Below are positions 54,658 to 64,000 of a stretch of 64,000 nt of DNA, in pieces. The position numbers and the translations under genes were made by a program. Position 1 is the stretch's first letter. Every line of letters starts with the position of its first letter. The notes below the pieces were generated by a model, which was given only the letters and a program-made list of their open reading frames with translations, was not told the origin of the DNA and ran no database searches. The DNA comes from Actinocatenispora comari (GTDB lineage Bacteria > Actinomycetota > Actinomycetes > Mycobacteriales > Micromonosporaceae), in NCBI RefSeq assembly GCF_017312725.1, contig NZ_BOPO01000150.1, positions 62,001 to 126,000 on the forward strand, given 5' to 3'.

Positions 54658-54698
54658 TGCACCGAGGGTTCTGCACCCGATGACCGTGCACTTTGCAC
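54658..54698. promoter_or_regulatory. Cluster of TGCAC half-sites
   Basis: TGCAC occurs at 54658, 54672, 54687 and 54694. The last two overlap an inverted repeat GTGCA-CTT-TGCAC (54686-54698). The first three are spaced by 14-15 bases. The cluster lies between the divergent DHFR-like gene and the kinase, 52 bases before the kinase start. The response regulator may bind here. Confidence 0.4.
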
Positions 54699-54749
54699 AA
54701 CCGCCCGACGGGACCGGATCCGGCCTCGCGCCGGCCGTACAGTTGGACC

Positions 54750-56696
54750 GTGCAGTCGAGCATCGCGCAGGACGGGGCCGGCGGAAGCTCCTCGCGGGCC
54801 GCCACGCGACGCGCCAACCACCACGGCACCGCGGCGGCGAGGACCCTGGTACTGGCGTACCTCGGCTGCCTGCTGGTCAGCAAGCTTGCCGACGCCAACC
54901 CCCATCCCGACCTCCGGTACCTGCCGTTCGTCGCCCTGTGCTTCGTGTTGCCGTTCTGGTACGCGAGCGGCTGGGCACGGGCGCCCTGGCGGAAGGGGCG
55001 TTGGTGGCTTCTGCTCGGGCAGGCCGCGGTGACGTACCTCGGGTTCGCGGTCTTCCAGGGCTCCTGGGTCGGCGGCGTCTCCGGCCTGCTGGGTGCCCTG
55101 GTGCTGCTGCTCGTGCGCCCGCCGTGGCGCCGGTGGCTGTTCGGCGCGCTCGCGCTCGCCGAGATCACCCTGTGGCTGACGGTGGGCCTGCCGTACCGGC
55201 CGAGCGTGAACGCGGCCGGATGGATGCTGATCGTCTTCGGGAACGTCAGCCTGGGAGTGTTCGGCCTGACCCGGCTGCTGGAACTGGTCGAGCGCCTGGA
55301 ATCCACTCAGGACGCCCTCGCCGACGCGGCGGTGGCGGCGCAGCGACTCGCTGCCGCGACCGATGTTCGCCGGGCGATCGTTTACCACCTCAACGAGGTG
55401 CGCGCACAGGTCCGCCATGCACTCGACGGCAGATCGGATGCCACCCGGACAGCACTGCGGCGGGCGGCAGATGCCGCCCGTACGGCTTCGGCATCGGCGC
55501 GGCGAATCGTCATCGACCTGCCTGCCTCGCCCGCCCTCGCTTCGATCGACCGGATCGAGCGGGTCACCCCCGCCCTGGCGCGCCGGGTCGTCACCGCGGT
55601 CGTGCTCCTGTTCGCCGGCCAGTACCTGCTGAACCTCGTCTTCCCCGCGGAGGGCGGTGCCACCGCACGTCCGGCGACCACGGTGCTCGCGGTGTCGGTC
55701 GCGGCGGTCATGGTCGCGCTCCAGTTGCGGCACTCCCGGTTCCGCCCCGACGACGAGCGTCCGGCGGGGTGGCCATGGACGCTGGGAGTGCAGGCTGTGC
55801 TCTGCTTCGTCGCCTACCCGATCTTCGGGGTGGTGAGCATCGTGTTCGTGGCATACCTCAGCGGCAGCATCCTGCTGCTGATCGAGCGCCCCATCCGGTG
55901 GGTGCTGTTCGGCCTCGTCGCGATCTGCATCCCGATCCTCACCGCGGTCGGTCCCTCCGACCTCGTCGGGCTGCCGTTGCAGATCCGGTGGTCCTGCTAC
56001 GCCGTCACGACGCTGGCGGCAGGAGGCCTGTTGGTGTACGGGCTGTCCCGGTTTCACCGGACCGCCGCCGAACTGGATCTCGCCCGACGAGAACTGGCCG
56101 AGGCCGCCGTCACCCAGGAGCGACTTCGGATCGCCCAGGACGCCCACGACACCCTGGGCCTCGGGCTGTCGACCATCGCGCTCAAGAGCGACCTCGCCCA
56201 CACCCTCCTCGACCGGGACGAAGGGCGGGCGCGGCGCGAAATCGTCCACATGCTGCACGTCGCCCGTACGGTGAGCTCCGACGCGTCCGCTCTCGTGGAC
56301 GGCACGTTGAACCTGGCACTGGACGAGGAGCTGGCGACCGCCGAGGACGTGCTCACCACCGCCGACGTGGTGACCACGATCGTCCGCGCGGACCTCTCCG
56401 CCGAAGCCGCGGTCGAATCGGAGATCGCGTCGATCCTGCGCGAGGCCGTGACGAACGTCCTGCGGCACAGCACGGCGCGCGAGTGCCGGATCGAGCTCGC
56501 CTGCCGGGACGGGCAGCTGTCCCTTCTGGTGGCCAACGACGGCGCGGCACGCGGGGGTGAGGTGACGCAGGGGAGGGGGCTTGCCAACATCGCCGCGCGT
56601 GCCGCTCGTCTGGGAGGATCGGTGCGCACCAGGCTCGAAGGGGGCCGATTCGAGGTTGCCGCCAGCGTGCCGGCTGGGAAGGGGGAGCGAGCATGA
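54750..56696 (+). CDS. Sensor histidine kinase (DesK/NarL type) with internally duplicated membrane-DHp module
   Basis: A 648-residue protein from GTG 54750. The C-terminal kinase core is intact: H box QERLRIAQDAHDTLGLGLST with phospho-acceptor His 466, N box REAVTNVLRHS, G box GRGLANIAARAARLGG. The N-terminal half repeats the plan: membrane helices (about 33-180) ending in LLVRPPWRRWLFGALAL, then a helix with ALADAAVAAQRLAAATDVRR, where the His-Asp of the H box is replaced by Arg-Arg (Arg 207). The second membrane block (about 270-436) has the matching LLLIERPIRWVLFGLVAI. So the protein is a fused tandem duplicate whose first DHp is dead. Confidence 0.88.
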   Translation: MQSSIAQDGAGGSSSRAATRRANHHGTAAARTLVLAYLGCLLVSKLADANPHPDLRYLPFVALCFVLPFWYASGWARAPWRKGRWWLLLGQAAVTYLGFAVFQGSWVGGVSGLLGALVLLLVRPPWRRWLFGALALAEITLWLTVGLPYRPSVNAAGWMLIVFGNVSLGVFGLTRLLELVERLESTQDALADAAVAAQRLAAATDVRRAIVYHLNEVRAQVRHALDGRSDATRTALRRAADAARTASASARRIVIDLPASPALASIDRIERVTPALARRVVTAVVLLFAGQYLLNLVFPAEGGATARPATTVLAVSVAAVMVALQLRHSRFRPDDERPAGWPWTLGVQAVLCFVAYPIFGVVSIVFVAYLSGSILLLIERPIRWVLFGLVAICIPILTAVGPSDLVGLPLQIRWSCYAVTTLAAGGLLVYGLSRFHRTAAELDLARRELAEAAVTQERLRIAQDAHDTLGLGLSTIALKSDLAHTLLDRDEGRARREIVHMLHVARTVSSDASALVDGTLNLALDEELATAEDVLTTADVVTTIVRADLSAEAAVESEIASILREAVTNVLRHSTARECRIELACRDGQLSLLVANDGAARGGEVTQGRGLANIAARAARLGGSVRTRLEGGRFEVAASVPAGKGERA

Positions 56697-57298
56697 TCCG
56701 CGTCCTGGTCGCCGAGGACTCGGCCATCCTGCGCGACACCCTCGTCGCCGTCCTCGACCTCGAGGACGGACTGACCGTCGTCGCCGATGTCGGCACCGGC
56801 GCAGAGATCGTTCCCGCGGCCCTCAAGCAGGTGCCGGACGTCGCGCTCCTCGACATCGACCTTCCCGGCACGGACGGGCTGACCGCCGCGGGTCACCTCG
56901 CCATCGCACTGCCGGCCTGCCGGGTACTCATCCTGACCGCGCACGCCCGGCCCGCCAACCTCCGGGCCGCCCTGGACGCCCACGTCGCCGGGTTTCTCGC
57001 CAAGGACACCTCGGCACGGGAGCTGATCACCGCCATCCGTACGGTCGCCTCCGGGGGACGTGTCGTCGATCCGGATGCCGCGATCGCCGCGATCGAAACC
57101 CGGCCGAGCCCCCTGACCGCGCGGGAGACCGAGGTTCTGCGACTCCATGCCAGCGGCGCGAACCCCCGTGACATCGCGAACGCACTGTTCCTGTCCTACG
57201 GGACGGTCCGCAACTACCTGGCCTCGGCGACGGACAAGCTCGGTGCGCGGAACCGGACGGACGCGGTGATCATCGCGAACGAGCAAGGCTGGCTCTAG
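56693..57298 (+). CDS. LuxR/NarL family response regulator
   Basis: A 201-residue protein; ATG 56693 overlaps the kinase stop (ATGA). The receiver has the acidic pair in VLVAEDSAIL, phospho-acceptor Asp 54 in ALLDIDLPGTDG and Lys in FLAKDTSA. The LuxR-type helix-turn-helix is LTARETEVLRLHASGANPRD and NALFLSYGTVRNYLASATDKLG. It resembles DesR. It is phosphorylated by the coupled kinase and probably controls nearby membrane or redox genes. Confidence 0.92.
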   Translation: MIRVLVAEDSAILRDTLVAVLDLEDGLTVVADVGTGAEIVPAALKQVPDVALLDIDLPGTDGLTAAGHLAIALPACRVLILTAHARPANLRAALDAHVAGFLAKDTSARELITAIRTVASGGRVVDPDAAIAAIETRPSPLTARETEVLRLHASGANPRDIANALFLSYGTVRNYLASATDKLGARNRTDAVIIANEQGWL

Positions 57299-58166: not shown

Positions 58167-58352
58167 ATGGATCACGAGCAGACCATTCGTGGCTGGAAGG
58201 ATCTCGACGCCCCGGGGGGGTCGAACCCGGCCGGCCGGATCGAACTCGACTCGGCGCACGGCGGCATGATCGCCACCCCGCGTACCGACTGGAACTGGCT
58301 CAGCGACGACTGCTGCCTCAGCGGCGTGACCTGCGGGGTCACCTGCAGCTGA
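58167..58352 (+). CDS. lanA: Type II lanthipeptide precursor (LanA1)
   Basis: A 61-residue peptide; ATG 58167 follows GGGAG. The leader has the mersacidin-like IRGWKDLD start, then NPAGRIELDS and AHGG, a double-Gly site for C39 cleavage at residues 32-33. The core is 28 residues: MIATPRTDWNWLSDD, then a Cys-Cys pair (49-50) and a C-terminal LSGVTCGVTCS. Four Cys and seven Ser/Thr allow up to four (methyl)lanthionine rings. The GVTC unit occurs twice in tandem. It lies 130 bases upstream of LanM. I do not recognise this core among known lantibiotics. Confidence 0.9.
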   Translation: MDHEQTIRGWKDLDAPGGSNPAGRIELDSAHGGMIATPRTDWNWLSDDCCLSGVTCGVTCS

Positions 58353-58359
58353 GTCGACC

Positions 58360-58384
58360 GGCCGGCGGGCCCCGCCCGCCGGCC
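58360..58384 (+). terminator. Strong hairpin between precursor and LanM, likely attenuator
   Basis: GGCCGGCGGGC (58360-58370) and GCCCGCCGGCC (58374-58384) form a perfect 11-bp all-GC stem with a CCC loop, 8 bases after the precursor stop. Such a partial terminator would make precursor mRNA more abundant than lanM mRNA. Confidence 0.7.
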
Positions 58385-58482
58385 ACCCGCTCGCCCGACC
58401 CGGGCCGCACCATCTTTCGGTTGCCCGGCAACACCTTCCGCCGTGTTCGCGGCATCCCGTTCGTCGCACGTGAGGAGTCATC

Positions 58483-61400
58483 GTGCCCGTCGACAAGCAT
58501 CCCCTGCCGGTACTGGGACTGCCGTGGGAACGCGGCGAGCGGCCGGCGTTGACCGGAGCCTGGTGGGCCCGCGCGCTGACGCTGGCCGAACGGATCGCCG
58601 CGCCCGGTGCGCCGTCCCCGGCGGTACCGGGCAGCCCGGACGGTGACCGGGCCGCGCGCCGGCTGAGCCGGTGGCGTACGGCGTACCCGGAGGTCACCGA
58701 CGACGCCGTCGCCCCGGTACTGGCCGGGTACGGGATCGACGAGCAGCGCCTGCTCGACCTGCTCGCCGAACCGGCCGACGAGTTGGCCGCGCGGGCCGGC
58801 AAGCCGGCCTGGGCGGCCCGGGTCGAGCGCGTCGTCGGCGCGATGGCGTACCACGGCGTGGACCGCACCGACGACTGGCGTGACGCGTTCGCCGCCATCG
58901 TGGCGCCGTTCGTCGCCGACGCCGCCGATCGGCTCGCCGGGCGGGTCGAGTACACCGGGGCGCCGGACGTGGACGGCGCGGCGTTGCTGGCGACGTTCCG
59001 GGCCGTGCTAGGCCGGCAGCTGGTGGACGCCGCGAGCCGGATCCTGGTCCTGGAACTCAACGTGATGCGGCTCGCCGACCGGCTGTCGGGGCCGGACGCC
59101 GCCGCCCGGTTCTGGTCGTTCGCCGAGCTGCTCGCGGACCCGGCCGAACTCGCCGCGCTGCTCGACGAGTACGCGGTGCTGGGCCGGACCCTGGTCACGC
59201 TCGCCGACCAGGCGGTCGAGGCGTACGCGGAGTTCCTGGGCCGGTTCGCGCACGACCGCGCGGCGCTGGTCGAGCGGTTGCTCGACGGCGAGCCGGGGAC
59301 CCTGGTCGAGGTGGCGATGGGCGGCGGCGACTCGCACGAGCGGGGCCGGTCGGTCGCCGTACTGCGGTTCGCCTCCGGCGCCCGGCTGGTGTACAAGCCG
59401 CGGCCGTTGGCGCTGCACCAGCACGTCAACGACATCCTGGCCTGGTACTCGCAGCGGCTGCCGGACGCCGCGCTGCGCCGGGTGCGGGTGCTGTCGGCGG
59501 ACGGGTACGGCTGGACGGAGTTCGTCCCGGTCGCCGAGTGCGCCGACCCCGGCGAGGCCCGCGGGTACTTCCGGCGGCAGGGCGCGCTGCTCGCGCTGCT
59601 GTACGTGCTGGCCGCGGTGGATTTCCACTACGAGAACGTGATCGCCTGCGGGGCCGACCCGGTCGTGGTCGACCTGGAGTCGGTGTTCCACGGCGACCTG
59701 CCGGTCACCACCGGCGCGGCGTTCACCGACGGGGATCCGGCGATGGCCGCGCTGCGCGACTCGGTCAGCCGTACCGGCCTGCTGCCGGCCGTGCTGTACG
59801 GGCCGGACGGTGGGGTGCTCGACGTCGGCGGGATGGGCGGCGACAAGGGCGGCGTGCTGCCGTTCAAGTCGGTGACCTTCGACGCCGCCGGTACCGACGA
59901 GATGCGGCTGGTGCGCGACTACCGCGAGTTCCCGGGCAGCCAGAACCGGCCCACCCTGGCCGGTCGGGACCTGGATGTCCGGGAGTTCGCGGCGGAGCTG
60001 CTGGCCGGCTTCCGCGCCGGGTACCGGGCGCTGGCCGCGCACCGGGACCAGCTGGCCGGGCTGATCGAGCGGTGCGCGGCCGACGAGACCCGGTGCATCG
60101 TGCGGGCCACCCGCAACTACATGCTGATCCTCACCGAGTCCAGCCATCCCGACGTCGGCCGGGACGCGCTGGACCGGGAGCGGGTGTTCGGGCTGCTGTG
60201 GGCGGCGTCGGTGTCGGATCCGGCGCGGCTGCGGCTGGTCGGCGCGGAGCTGACCGACCTGTGGCACGGCGACGTACCGCTGTTTCGTACCCGGGCCGGA
60301 TCGACCGATCTGTACCGCGTCGACGGCGGCCGGATCGCCGAGGTGCTCCCGGAGTCCGGGCTGGCCCGTGCCCGGCGGGTGCTCGACCGGTTGGGCGAGG
60401 CGGATCTCGCCGAGCAGGAGTGGGTCATCGAGGCGACGCTGGCGACCCGCGCGGAGACCGGTCACGGTACGCCGTCCCGGTCGGCCCGCACCGCGGTCGA
60501 CCCGGCGGCGAGCGTGCAGGAGCGCGCGCTGGCGCACGCCCGGGCGATCGGCGACCGGCTGGCCGACTCGGCGTACCGGCGTGGGGACCGGGTCGGCTGG
60601 CTCGGCATGGACCTGGTCCAGGACACCCAGTGGACGGTCACCCAGCTGCGCGCCGACCTGTACAACGGCTATCCCGGGGTCGCGGTCTTCCTGGCCGGGC
60701 TGGCCCACCTCACCGGCCGGCAGCGGTACGCCGAGCTGGCCCGGGCGGCGTTGCGCCCGTTGCCGGCCCAGGTCGAGCACGTCCGGCCGCTGCTCGATCG
60801 CGACGGCGACGTGCGCGGCGTGCTCGGCCCGTACTCGGGGCCGACCGGTGTGGCCTACGCGCTGGCCTCGGCGGCGCGGCTGCTGGACGATGCCGAGCTG
60901 GCCGCGCCGGTGCCCGGCATCCTCGACTGGGTCACCGGGCTGGTCGAGCGGGACGAGACGCTCGACATCATCGGCGGCGCGGCCGGTTGCCTGGCGCTGG
61001 CCGAATCGCTGCTGGACGCCGGTGTCGGCGGGACGGTGGCGGCCCGGCTCGCCGCGGCCTGCGCGGCCCGGCTGATCGACACCTCGGTGCCGGTCGACGG
61101 CGGCATCGGTTGGTACACCATGGACTCCGGCGCCCCGCTGGTCGGGTTCTCGCACGGGGCGGCGGGGATCGGCTGGGCCCTGCTGCGGTACGCGGCGCGC
61201 ACCGGCGACGCCGCCGCGCGTGCCGCCGGCCGGGCGGCGCTCGCCTACGAGCGGACGCTGTTTCGCCCGGAGCTGGACAACTGGCCGGACCTGCGGCAGT
61301 TGCCGGACCGCCCGTGGGCCCGGCGCAGCGAACCGGTCGAGGTGGCGCACATGCACGCGTGGTGCCACGGCGCACCCGGCATCGGCCTGGCGCGGGCGGC

Positions 61401-61755
61401 GTTGCCGCCCGCCGAGCGGGACATCGACACGGACACCGACCTGGCCCGCGCGGTGCGCTCCACGGCCGTGTTCGGCCACTTCGGCAACCACAGCATCTGC
61501 CACGGTGACCTGGGCAACCTGGAGCTGTTCAGCGTCGCCGCCCGCGCCGGCGTGACGTCCGCGGCCGGGCACCGGGAAAGCCTCGCCGCGGCCGTACTGG
61601 CCCATCTGGACCGGGTCGGCCCGCGCTGTGGCACCCCGTCGTCGGTACCGACCCCCGGGTTGATGACCGGGCTGTCCGGCATCGGTCACGGGCTGCTGCG
61701 CCTCGCGGCGCCGGACCGGATCGCGCCGGTGCTGTTGCTGGCGGTACGGCCGTGA
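58483..61755 (+). CDS. lanM: LanM class II lanthipeptide synthetase
   Basis: A 1090-residue bifunctional enzyme. GTG 58483 follows GAGGAG. The N-terminal dehydratase (DUF4135) half has the kinase-like residues: Lys 305 in LVYKPRPLALHQHVND, then VDFHYENVIA and VVVDLESVFHGD. The C-terminal LanC-like cyclase has YNGYPGVAVFLAG, SGPTGVAYAL, GFSHGAAGIGWALL and the zinc ligands Cys 961 (WCHGAPG) and Cys 1006-His 1007 (ICHGDLGN). It phosphorylates and dehydrates Ser/Thr of the precursors, then adds Cys to form (methyl)lanthionines. Its stop overlaps the LanT start (GTGA). Confidence 0.96.
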   Translation: MPVDKHPLPVLGLPWERGERPALTGAWWARALTLAERIAAPGAPSPAVPGSPDGDRAARRLSRWRTAYPEVTDDAVAPVLAGYGIDEQRLLDLLAEPADELAARAGKPAWAARVERVVGAMAYHGVDRTDDWRDAFAAIVAPFVADAADRLAGRVEYTGAPDVDGAALLATFRAVLGRQLVDAASRILVLELNVMRLADRLSGPDAAARFWSFAELLADPAELAALLDEYAVLGRTLVTLADQAVEAYAEFLGRFAHDRAALVERLLDGEPGTLVEVAMGGGDSHERGRSVAVLRFASGARLVYKPRPLALHQHVNDILAWYSQRLPDAALRRVRVLSADGYGWTEFVPVAECADPGEARGYFRRQGALLALLYVLAAVDFHYENVIACGADPVVVDLESVFHGDLPVTTGAAFTDGDPAMAALRDSVSRTGLLPAVLYGPDGGVLDVGGMGGDKGGVLPFKSVTFDAAGTDEMRLVRDYREFPGSQNRPTLAGRDLDVREFAAELLAGFRAGYRALAAHRDQLAGLIERCAADETRCIVRATRNYMLILTESSHPDVGRDALDRERVFGLLWAASVSDPARLRLVGAELTDLWHGDVPLFRTRAGSTDLYRVDGGRIAEVLPESGLARARRVLDRLGEADLAEQEWVIEATLATRAETGHGTPSRSARTAVDPAASVQERALAHARAIGDRLADSAYRRGDRVGWLGMDLVQDTQWTVTQLRADLYNGYPGVAVFLAGLAHLTGRQRYAELARAALRPLPAQVEHVRPLLDRDGDVRGVLGPYSGPTGVAYALASAARLLDDAELAAPVPGILDWVTGLVERDETLDIIGGAAGCLALAESLLDAGVGGTVAARLAAACAARLIDTSVPVDGGIGWYTMDSGAPLVGFSHGAAGIGWALLRYAARTGDAAARAAGRAALAYERTLFRPELDNWPDLRQLPDRPWARRSEPVEVAHMHAWCHGAPGIGLARAALPPAERDIDTDTDLARAVRSTAVFGHFGNHSICHGDLGNLELFSVAARAGVTSAAGHRESLAAAVLAHLDRVGPRCGTPSSVPTPGLMTGLSGIGHGLLRLAAPDRIAPVLLLAVRP

Positions 61756-63944
61756 CCCGGGTACCGCTGCGGTTCCAGCTGACCCGCACCGAGTGCGGCG
61801 CCGCGTGCCTGGCGATGGTGCTCAGCCGGTACGGGCGGGACACCTCGGTACCGGAGTGCCGGGCGCTGCTGGGTACCGGCCGGGACGGCGTGTCGGTGTC
61901 GGCGATCGCCGCGGCCGCGGAGCAGGCGGGGCTGGCGGTCGGCGTGGAGCGCTCCGACCGGCTGCCGGCCGGGCCGCTGACCGGCCTGGCGATCGCCTAC
62001 CTGGCCCGGCACCACTTCGTCGTCGTGGTCCGCGCCGACGACCGGAGGGTGTCGCTGGTGGATCCGGGGGTCGGGCGGCAGCGGCTGTCCCGCGCCGAGT
62101 TCGACGACCAGTACGGCGGGGTGCTGCTGCGGCTGTCTCCCACCGATCGGTTGGAGCGGCGGCGAACCCGGTGGCGGGACGCGCCGATGGTGCGCTACCT
62201 GCACCAGTTCGCCTCGGTACCGGGTGGGCGGCGGCTGATCGCGCTGACCGTGCTGTTCGCCGCGGGACTGCAGGCGCTGGGGCTGGGCATCCCGCTGCTG
62301 ACCAAGCTGGTGGTGGACACCCTGGTACCGGCGCACCGAACGGATCTGCTGCCCGCCGTCGGCGCCGGCATCGTCGCGGTGGGCGTCGCGTACGGCGCGT
62401 TGACGCTGGCCCGCGGACTGGCGTTGCTGACCCTGCGCGCGCTGGGCGACCGGGAGCTGACGCACGGGTTCGTCAAGCACCTGTTCCGGCTGCCGATCGG
62501 GTTCTTCCTGGACCGCGGCCGCGGCGACCTGCTGATGCGCCTGTCGAGCGTGTCCACCACCCGGGAGACGTTGAGCCAGCAGCTGTTGACGATGATCGTC
62601 GACGGGTTCCTGCTGATCGGCTACCTGATCGCGGTCGTGCTGCTGTCCCCGCTGTACCTGCTGCCGCTGGTGCCGCTGGCCGTCGCGCAGGCGCTGGTAC
62701 TGGCCGCGACCTACCGGCGGCTGCGGGTGCTGGCGCAGCGGGAGCTGACCGCCCGCTCGGAGGAGCAGAGCTACCTGGTGGAGACGCTGGAGGCGGTGAT
62801 CCCGCTGAAGGCCAACGGGGTGGAGGAGCGGGCCGTCGCGCACTGGCGGCGACTGTTCGACCGGTACCAGCGGGCGATGGTACGCCGTGGCCGCGGCACG
62901 GCGGTACTCGGCGCCGCGCAGCGGGCGGTCGGCACGCTGGGCCCGCTGGCGCTGCTGTGGTTCGGTGCCGGCATGGTCCTGTCGGGCCGGTTGAGCCTGG
63001 GCGCGATGCTCGCCGCCAACGCCGTCGCGCTGTCGATCCTGTCGCCGCTGGAGACCTTCGCCGGTGTCGGCCAGCTGTACCACGCGGTGCGGGCCCAGGT
63101 GGAGCGGCTGTTCGACGTGCTCGACACGCCGGCCGAGCAGAGCGGTACGGTCCGGTTGCCGGCCGACGAGCCGACCCGGATCACGGTGCGGGGGTTGGGT
63201 TTCCGCTACCACGACAGCCAGCCGCCGATCCTCACCGACGTCGGGTTCGACCTGCCGCCCGGCGGCAAGCTCGGGGTGGTCGGCCGTACCGGCTCGGGCA
63301 AGAGCACGCTGGGACTGCTGCTGCTGGGCCTGCTGCGGCCCACCGAAGGCGAGGTACGCCACGACGGGGTCGCGGTGGCCGAGCTGGACGTGCCCGACCT
63401 GCGGTCGCACTGCGGCGCGGTGCTGCAGGAACTGACCCTGTTCAACGGCAGTATCCGGGACAACCTGGTACTGAGCCGGCCGGACGCCACCGACGCCGAG
63501 GTGATCGGCGCTGCCCGAGCCGCCGGCCTGCACGACGACGTGCTGGCGCTGCCGATGGGCTACGACACCCTCGTCGGTGAGGGGGGCACCGCGCTGTCGG
63601 CCGGCCAGCGGCAACGCATCGCGCTCGCCCGTGCGCTGGTGCACCGGCCCCGGCTGCTGGTGCTGGACGAGGCCACCAGCCACCTGGATCCGCAGACCGA
63701 GCGCGAGGTCGACGCCGCGCTGGCGCGGTTGGCGGTGACCCGGGTGGTCATCTCGCACCGGCTGTCGGCGATCCGCGGTGCCGACCAGATCCTGGTCCTG
63801 GACCGGGGGCGGGTCGTGCAGCGCGGCGGCCACGACGAGCTGGTGGCCGCCCATGGCCGGTACCGGCAGCTGTTCGGTACGGCCGATTCCGAGACCCGGG
63901 ACGGCGCCGTGCCGTCTCGTGACACCGAAAGGAGCATCCGATGA
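61752..63944 (+). CDS. lanT: LanT bifunctional C39 peptidase / ABC exporter
   Basis: A 730-residue protein. The N-terminal C39 peptidase has the catalytic Cys 15 in TECGAACLAMVLSRYG, and HHFVVVV followed by VSLVDPGVG for the His and Asp. Then an ABC membrane domain (about 165-440) and an ATPase: Walker A GRTGSGKST, signature LSAGQRQR, Walker B LLVLDEATSHLD and the switch His in ISHRLSAI. It cuts the leader after the double Gly and exports the modified peptide. It is coupled to lanM upstream (GTGA) and to the second precursor downstream (ATGA). Confidence 0.96.
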   Translation: MTRVPLRFQLTRTECGAACLAMVLSRYGRDTSVPECRALLGTGRDGVSVSAIAAAAEQAGLAVGVERSDRLPAGPLTGLAIAYLARHHFVVVVRADDRRVSLVDPGVGRQRLSRAEFDDQYGGVLLRLSPTDRLERRRTRWRDAPMVRYLHQFASVPGGRRLIALTVLFAAGLQALGLGIPLLTKLVVDTLVPAHRTDLLPAVGAGIVAVGVAYGALTLARGLALLTLRALGDRELTHGFVKHLFRLPIGFFLDRGRGDLLMRLSSVSTTRETLSQQLLTMIVDGFLLIGYLIAVVLLSPLYLLPLVPLAVAQALVLAATYRRLRVLAQRELTARSEEQSYLVETLEAVIPLKANGVEERAVAHWRRLFDRYQRAMVRRGRGTAVLGAAQRAVGTLGPLALLWFGAGMVLSGRLSLGAMLAANAVALSILSPLETFAGVGQLYHAVRAQVERLFDVLDTPAEQSGTVRLPADEPTRITVRGLGFRYHDSQPPILTDVGFDLPPGGKLGVVGRTGSGKSTLGLLLLGLLRPTEGEVRHDGVAVAELDVPDLRSHCGAVLQELTLFNGSIRDNLVLSRPDATDAEVIGAARAAGLHDDVLALPMGYDTLVGEGGTALSAGQRQRIALARALVHRPRLLVLDEATSHLDPQTEREVDAALARLAVTRVVISHRLSAIRGADQILVLDRGRVVQRGGHDELVAAHGRYRQLFGTADSETRDGAVPSRDTERSIR

Positions 63945-64000
63945 GCGAACTGATCCGGTCCTGGAAGGACCCGGACTCGACGCCCGCCGCGGCCAGCCCT
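63941..64000 (+). CDS. lanA: Second lanthipeptide precursor (LanA2), start only
   Basis: ATG 63941 overlaps the LanT stop (ATGA) and has AAAGGAG upstream. The 20 codons seen, MSELIRSWKDPDSTPAAASP, match the leader start of LanA1 (IRGWKDLD) and mersacidin-type leaders. The core lies beyond the window. Confidence 0.8.
   Translation, partial: MSELIRSWKDPDSTPAAASP

Follow-up and report, generated by a model that had tools for sequence, protein, structure and literature searches.

We found that the end of a 64,000-nucleotide stretch of Actinocatenispora comari DNA (the window; contig NZ_BOPO01000150.1, positions 62,001 to 126,000, G000:C150:62001-126000) carries the first part of a class II lanthipeptide unit, in which five precursor genes (A1 to A5) accompany one synthetase gene, lanM, and one exporter gene, lanT. 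A1 lies 5' of lanM, and A2 to A5 follow lanT. In our best reading, which rests on sequence comparison, the unit would be an expanded roseocin-like system with one beta peptide and several alpha peptides, and the rings, synergy and activity of its products are those that this likeness predicts. It is probable that LanM and LanT process five class II roseocin-like lanthipeptides, that A2 serves the alphas A3-A5 (perhaps also A1) as their common beta partner, and that a LAL-type regulator controls the unit. The features are listed below; window numbering past 64000 is the L003 coordinate plus 54000.

58167..58265, + strand: A1 leader peptide, 33 residues, with GWKD and NPAG and a Gly-Gly end (translation; the leader type is alike in A2-A5)
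58266..58352, + strand: A1 core, 28 residues and stop, T-x5-S-x-D-Cys-Cys, then GVTC GVTC S (translation; the core is identical in congener G003)
58483..61755, + strand: lanM, class II lanthipeptide synthetase of the CHG type, GTG start (TIGR03897, DUF4135, LANC_like)
61752..63944, + strand: lanT, C39 peptidase-containing ABC exporter (Pfam C39, ABC_membrane, ABC_tran)
63941-64135, + strand: A2, beta-like precursor; only its first 60 bases (63941..64000) are inside the window
64148-64342: A3 precursor, beyond the window end
64401-64586: A4 precursor, beyond the window end
64633-64806: A5 precursor, beyond the window end
64890-67613, - strand: LAL-type LuxR regulator, 907 residues, with AAA_16 and GerE domains, beyond the window end

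All genes of the unit have open frames in A. comari. LanM matches TIGR03897 (lanti_2_LanM) with 827 bits against a cut-off of 304, and its DUF4135 dehydratase and LANC_like cyclase domains were found with Pfam. Its KPR, DFHxEN, WCHG and CHG stretches align with those of LicM2 (6st5), and the zinc site is CHG, not CCG. LanT aligns with the bacteriocin transporter 4ry2 across residues 10-709 (306 bits). A preliminary description of the window had reported a 61-residue precursor with a WKD-type leader, a Gly-Gly site and a 28-residue core in which an SDD stretch precedes Cys-Cys and GVTC is repeated in tandem at the end, followed by LanM and a C39 LanT; translation confirmed the former, and TIGR03897 and the Pfam domains the latter. 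That the cluster is a class II lanthipeptide cluster is supported by the LanM domains and by the five Gly-Gly precursors with Ser/Thr/Cys cores. The same description took A1 for a new lanthipeptide standing alone, and this is not supported: A1 belongs to a roseocin-like system of five precursors, among which it is the least typical.

The precursors themselves carry the roseocin-like reading. All five share the leader type and end it with Gly-Gly. Roseocin alpha has the motif S/TxxxxTxGCC near the N-terminus of its core (PMC10027976; statements from this paper and from PMC7268733 refer to excerpts), and three of the five cores fit it exactly, namely A3 (SEHASTLGCC), A4 (TEGALTWGCC) and A5 (TEGWNTFGCC). 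The C-terminus of A2, GTCMVSATVGCC, reads GT-x5-T-x-GCC, which is the roseocin beta motif with one extra residue. Besides these motifs, the unit shares with roseocin of Streptomyces roseosporus (RosA1 beta, RosA2 alpha, RosM) a WKD/PAG leader ending Gly-Gly or Gly-Ala, a CHG LanM, a C39 LanT and the lack of the mersacidin lipid II motif. In A1 the corresponding stretch is TDWNWLSDDCC, where the loop is longer by one residue, Ser replaces Thr and Asp replaces Gly. The A1 leader is closest to that of A3 (19 of 33 positions identical). By its residues, A1 is a departed relative with a degenerate alpha motif.

In class II biosynthesis, LanM binds the leader, phosphorylates and eliminates Ser and Thr, and closes thioether rings at its zinc site. 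LanM of this unit would bind the shared leader and dehydrate Ser/Thr in A1-A5. In A3-A5, both Ser/Thr residues of the motif would close on the Cys-Cys pair, forming two overlapping rings in the way proposed for roseocin alpha (PMC10027976), and one or more rings would form further along in each peptide. In A1, one ring of the overlapping pair would be a residue wider, leaving S19, T22, C23 and C27 for two more rings. The A1 core has four Cys and seven Ser/Thr, a count that by arithmetic alone permits up to four rings. Because roseocin alpha, next to four thioether rings, also holds a disulfide that it cannot do without (PMC10027976), it is possible that A1 forms fewer than four. LanT would then cleave after Gly-Gly and export the products, and A2 would act as the beta partner shared by A3-A5, perhaps also A1, as alternative alphas against Gram-positive competitors, with the LAL regulator controlling the unit. 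The published roseocin pair is synergistic.

To place the unit, eight clusters were compared: the window's own, G210, G1454, G1664, G1457, G1507, G1471 and G1662, with 36 cores in all. They were chosen by hand as having a LanM of the window LanM clade and at least three such precursors. The family f1 is taken as Micromonosporaceae, f103 as Streptosporangiaceae and g75 as Streptomyces. Since the precursor searches scored the best 14-19 candidates per genome, the genome counts are lower bounds: matching precursors occur in at least 36 of 354 genomes of f1, at least 19 of 327 of f103, at least 11 of 295 of g75, at least 5 of 374 in a class sample (own genome included) and at least 1 of 396 in a phylum sample (the window's own); a separate search gave 6 of 61. 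A looser motif, [ST]x4[ST]xGCC, which accepts Ser as well as Thr at position six where the published motif has Thr only, is present in 27 of the 36 cores, whereas 2000 shuffles gave 0.046 on average and never more than 2; the search profile itself contained the motif and the cluster set was found partly through it. The 36 cores divide into 25 alpha, 4 beta, 5 Gly-less (Gly before Cys-Cys replaced) and 2 other. The fourth G1454 precursor is counted as beta because it meets the strict beta motif, judged by the placement of the motif; its automatic label was alpha.

Beta-like precursors are found in four of the eight clusters. One is A2. G210, from another genus of f1, has a lanT with 69% identity, a second lanM and five precursors in a row (one beta, three exact alphas and one other), and its beta carries the same extra residue as A2. 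Its first lanM (62% identity) is apparently split over contigs. G1454 and G1664, both of f103, meet the strict beta motif and have the order lanM-lanT-beta-alpha(s) with an adjoining LAL regulator (32% identity); G1664 has an additional unlike precursor past the regulator. In G1457, G1507, G1471 and G1662, four to six precursors of alpha or Gly-less type were found and no beta, the G1457 contig ending just after the precursors. Exactly one Gly-less member occurs in each of five clusters, own included, with D, K, K, Q or R in place of Gly, and four of the five share the five-residue loop of A1; there is none in G210, G1454 and G1664. The five cases are not independent, since G1457 is closely related to G1507 and G1471 to G1662. 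Since a Gly-less member recurs once in five of eight clusters, A1 is less odd than it first looked. On the sequences compared, A1 is probably the member of the set that takes the Gly-less role, here positioned upstream of lanM.

Several loci were left out of this table. L210, L211 and L212 of f103 are three-precursor clusters whose few-Cys cores have no GCC motif, and their LanMs are within the wide clade of the window LanM. L213 and L216 have one precursor each, and L214 and L215 two each without the GCC motif. L202/L203, L126 (three precursors, roseocin-type LanM clade) and the roseocin-type pairs were also omitted. Elsewhere, G042 (L127, L131, L132, L060) has several few-Cys WKDP-leader peptides at separate sites, most with acidic C-termini ending at or near Trp, and one of them adjoins a LanM 45% identical to the window LanM. 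Short frames beside LanM genes at L061 11278, L069 7671 and L072 10780 combine a hydrophobic segment with Thr-Cys-Cys near the C-terminus, unlike usual lanthipeptide precursors.

The enzyme gives a different picture from the precursors. The trees were short searches without bootstrap, and branch support is given by the Shimodaira-Hasegawa-like approximate likelihood ratio test (SH-aLRT). The window LanM forms one group with the LanMs of G1454 and G1664 (SH-aLRT 95), its highest identity being 48% (G1664), in a clade of 20 rows (SH-aLRT 100) that includes a LanM from all eight multi-precursor clusters, represented in G210 by the second LanM. LanMs of roseocin-type loci form a separate clade of 15 rows (SH-aLRT 98). 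Roseocin-type loci are an assignment made here, anchored on L155 and L156 from a Streptomyces-like genus, which stand in for RosM and whose alpha core has 5 Ser/Thr, 6 Cys and Leu at residue 8, as given for roseocin alpha (PMC10027976). Of 13 LanMs beside assigned roseocin-type precursors, 12 are in the 15-row clade and the thirteenth, L036, is unplaced. L036, on the Gemmatimonas metagenome-assembled contig JAJKIV010000141.1, has a roseocin-like alpha and beta pair and was binned outside Actinobacteria. In the other tree the two clades are again apart, with 10 rows (100) for the window LanM's and 17 rows (100) for the roseocin-type. Rows of fewer than 850 residues or fewer than 800 aligned were dropped (L045, L053 second frame, L072, L075), and the 10/17-row tree was also without six more distant rows; the 20/15-row tree included 22 earlier rows and five of nine g75 rows, hand-picked. 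The second LanM of G210, of which blastp caught just a short piece, was entered by hand, and the fragments of the first are in no tree. Because the precursors indicate the roseocin kind and the enzyme is a separate branch, we file the cluster apart from roseocin types 1-3.

Several of these results weigh against an expanded roseocin-like system. A2 is one residue off the strict beta motif, and the A1 core departs from the alpha motif. The window LanM does not fall in the RosM-type clade. In the 20-row clade to which it does belong, the loci behind 12 rows have precursors that are of another sort, single or unrecognised, and clade membership is therefore not diagnostic of multi-precursor clusters. 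Given the four clusters in which no beta was found, alpha-type peptides may work without one. Neither inspection of the lists of open reading frames by eye nor a Pfam scan of seven proteins past the regulator revealed an immunity transporter, and no further search was made. Finally, lanM and lanT of the congener G003 (L059, G003:C1:5350000-5369999) are frame-broken as assembled, with a one-base net indel each.

The last point concerns a species of the same genus in which the five precursors, lanM, lanT and the regulator are all present at 88-96% nucleotide identity. A1 has 96% nucleotide identity and zero amino-acid changes in its core, so that its frame is no chance occurrence. Between the two species, non-synonymous (pN) and synonymous (pS) differences per site are 0.032 and 0.198 in the five leaders and 0.029 and 0.140 in the five cores pooled. 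Ser, Thr or Cys is replaced in none of the five cores, and the A3 core differs in length by one residue. The similarity spans from about L003 4019 (window 58019) to about L003 13702. Just upstream, at 54693-57298, a histidine kinase is paired with a LuxR-type response regulator, and the pair is not adjacent to the cluster in G003. Because the similarity starts only near window 58019, the kinase, the response regulator and a glyoxalase gene lie outside the conserved unit, and they were rejected as cluster members. The sole G003 match of an arginase-family gene beside the A. comari cluster is about 1.3 megabases from the G003 cluster; hence the unit seems to occupy different places in the two genomes. 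The frame breaks in G003 are due either to assembly error or to decay. That the cluster is decaying and makes no product in nature, as the indels in G003 lanM and lanT might imply, is hardly credible, because all genes are open in A. comari, precursor substitutions per site are mostly synonymous, and the G003 regulator gene also aligns with gaps, as assembly error could produce.

The most serious alternative is a diversity-type cluster, in which a tolerant LanM modifies unlike peptides that act independently as antibiotics or signals, with no alpha/beta partnership. The cores of the unit diverge more than its leaders (5-10 identical of 24-31 positions versus 14-19 of 32-33), as this alternative would have it, and half of the eight clusters lack a recognised beta. 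However, most cores keep the alpha motif, the LanM is of the CHG and not the CCG type, and beta-like precursors do occur in the other half, in G1454 by reading of the motif place. We therefore regard independent action as rather unlikely. The distinction between CCG and CHG zinc sites among LanMs is taken from PMC10027976. The prochlorosins, made by ProcM, resemble the unit in that one LanM serves multiple precursors with diverse cores, and differ from it in the CHG zinc site, shared core motif and clustered genes found here; a prochlorosin-type system was rejected on the zinc site.

It is still less likely that A1 is a stand-alone four-ring lantibiotic with A2-A5 as accessories. In favour of this, lanM is preceded by A1 alone, and G003 keeps the A1 core unchanged. 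Its leader, however, is most similar to that of another member of the set, and a Gly-less member in five of eight clusters makes A1 look like one role within a set. In six f103 loci the precursors follow lanT, and a pattern scan gave no accepted precursor upstream of lanM (one L205 frame without a WKD leader was discounted by eye). Nor was an A1-like precursor found in the approximately 1.4 kb examined upstream of the apparent start of the first G210 lanM.

The preliminary description had also held that the A1 core is unlike mersacidin, actagardine and similar peptides, and this stands as far as tested. The lipid II motif T-x-T-x-[E/D]-C occurs in none of the 36 tabulated cores, and A1 has no match to TIGR03898 (mersacidin/lichenicidin) or any other NCBIfam or Pfam model. 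The other precursors score 20.5 (A4), 15.6 (A2), 14.7 (A5) and 13.7 (A3), all below the TIGR03898 cut-off of 23.5, and on both grounds a mersacidin-type lantibiotic was rejected. Lacticin 3147, haloduracin and lichenicidin share LanM, C39 LanT and the alpha/beta idea with the expanded roseocin-like system favoured here, whereas the window locus lacks TxTxEC and has one LanM against their two (PMC10027976). A second class II locus of A. comari, at about L005 7100-10800 (G000:C75:41106-44763), has a LanM with 38% identity to the window LanM and one precursor with the C-terminus STCNYASVTCSHICSCAI; G002 and G003 have near-identical precursors, and G001 has one that is more distant.

Roseocin loci have been divided into type 1 (three precursors and one LanM), type 2 (two and one) and type 3 (two precursors and two LanMs) (PMC10027976). 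The window locus differs from all three by its five precursors with one LanM in a separate LanM clade, and its leaders of 32-33 residues are shorter than those in the type 2 and 3 loci examined; the comparison of A1 with type 1 was made without the third precursor of that type, LanA2A. The kind of system is already known from passing mentions. Small-sized roseocin homologs taken from Walker et al. 2020 remained unassigned to any of types 1-3 (PMC10027976), and a class II cluster of Herbidospora mongoliensis has six distinct precursors (PMC7268733), as does the G1457 cluster. Compared by description only, both are possibly of the same broad class, with small cores and several precursors; the passages on them propose no type or mechanism. 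Among open-licence papers, judged by title and the start of the abstract, supplements aside, no other study of a multi-precursor roseocin-like cluster was found. A literature search with five core strings, of which A1 supplied two, turned up no lanthipeptide paper by title, and its matches were all to one generic string. As far as these literature searches go, three features are undescribed: a single CHG LanM serving five precursors, a Gly-less member that recurs, and a LanM clade of its own. We tentatively raise, as an idea that we think doubtful, a fourth roseocin-like type with one CHG LanM, one beta, interchangeable small alphas and a Gly-less member (A1) with its own role, which might yield a combinatorial mixture of antibiotics in which the alphas share one partner but vary in their range of targets.

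Within its two-component family, roseocin is the member that has been characterised, and it is without the usual lipid II motif. If several natural alphas do share one beta, the unit would show directly what in the alpha core selects the target and what serves only to hold the partner, as well as the extent to which a CHG LanM accepts differing substrates. The 36 precursors in eight clusters provide a ready comparison set.

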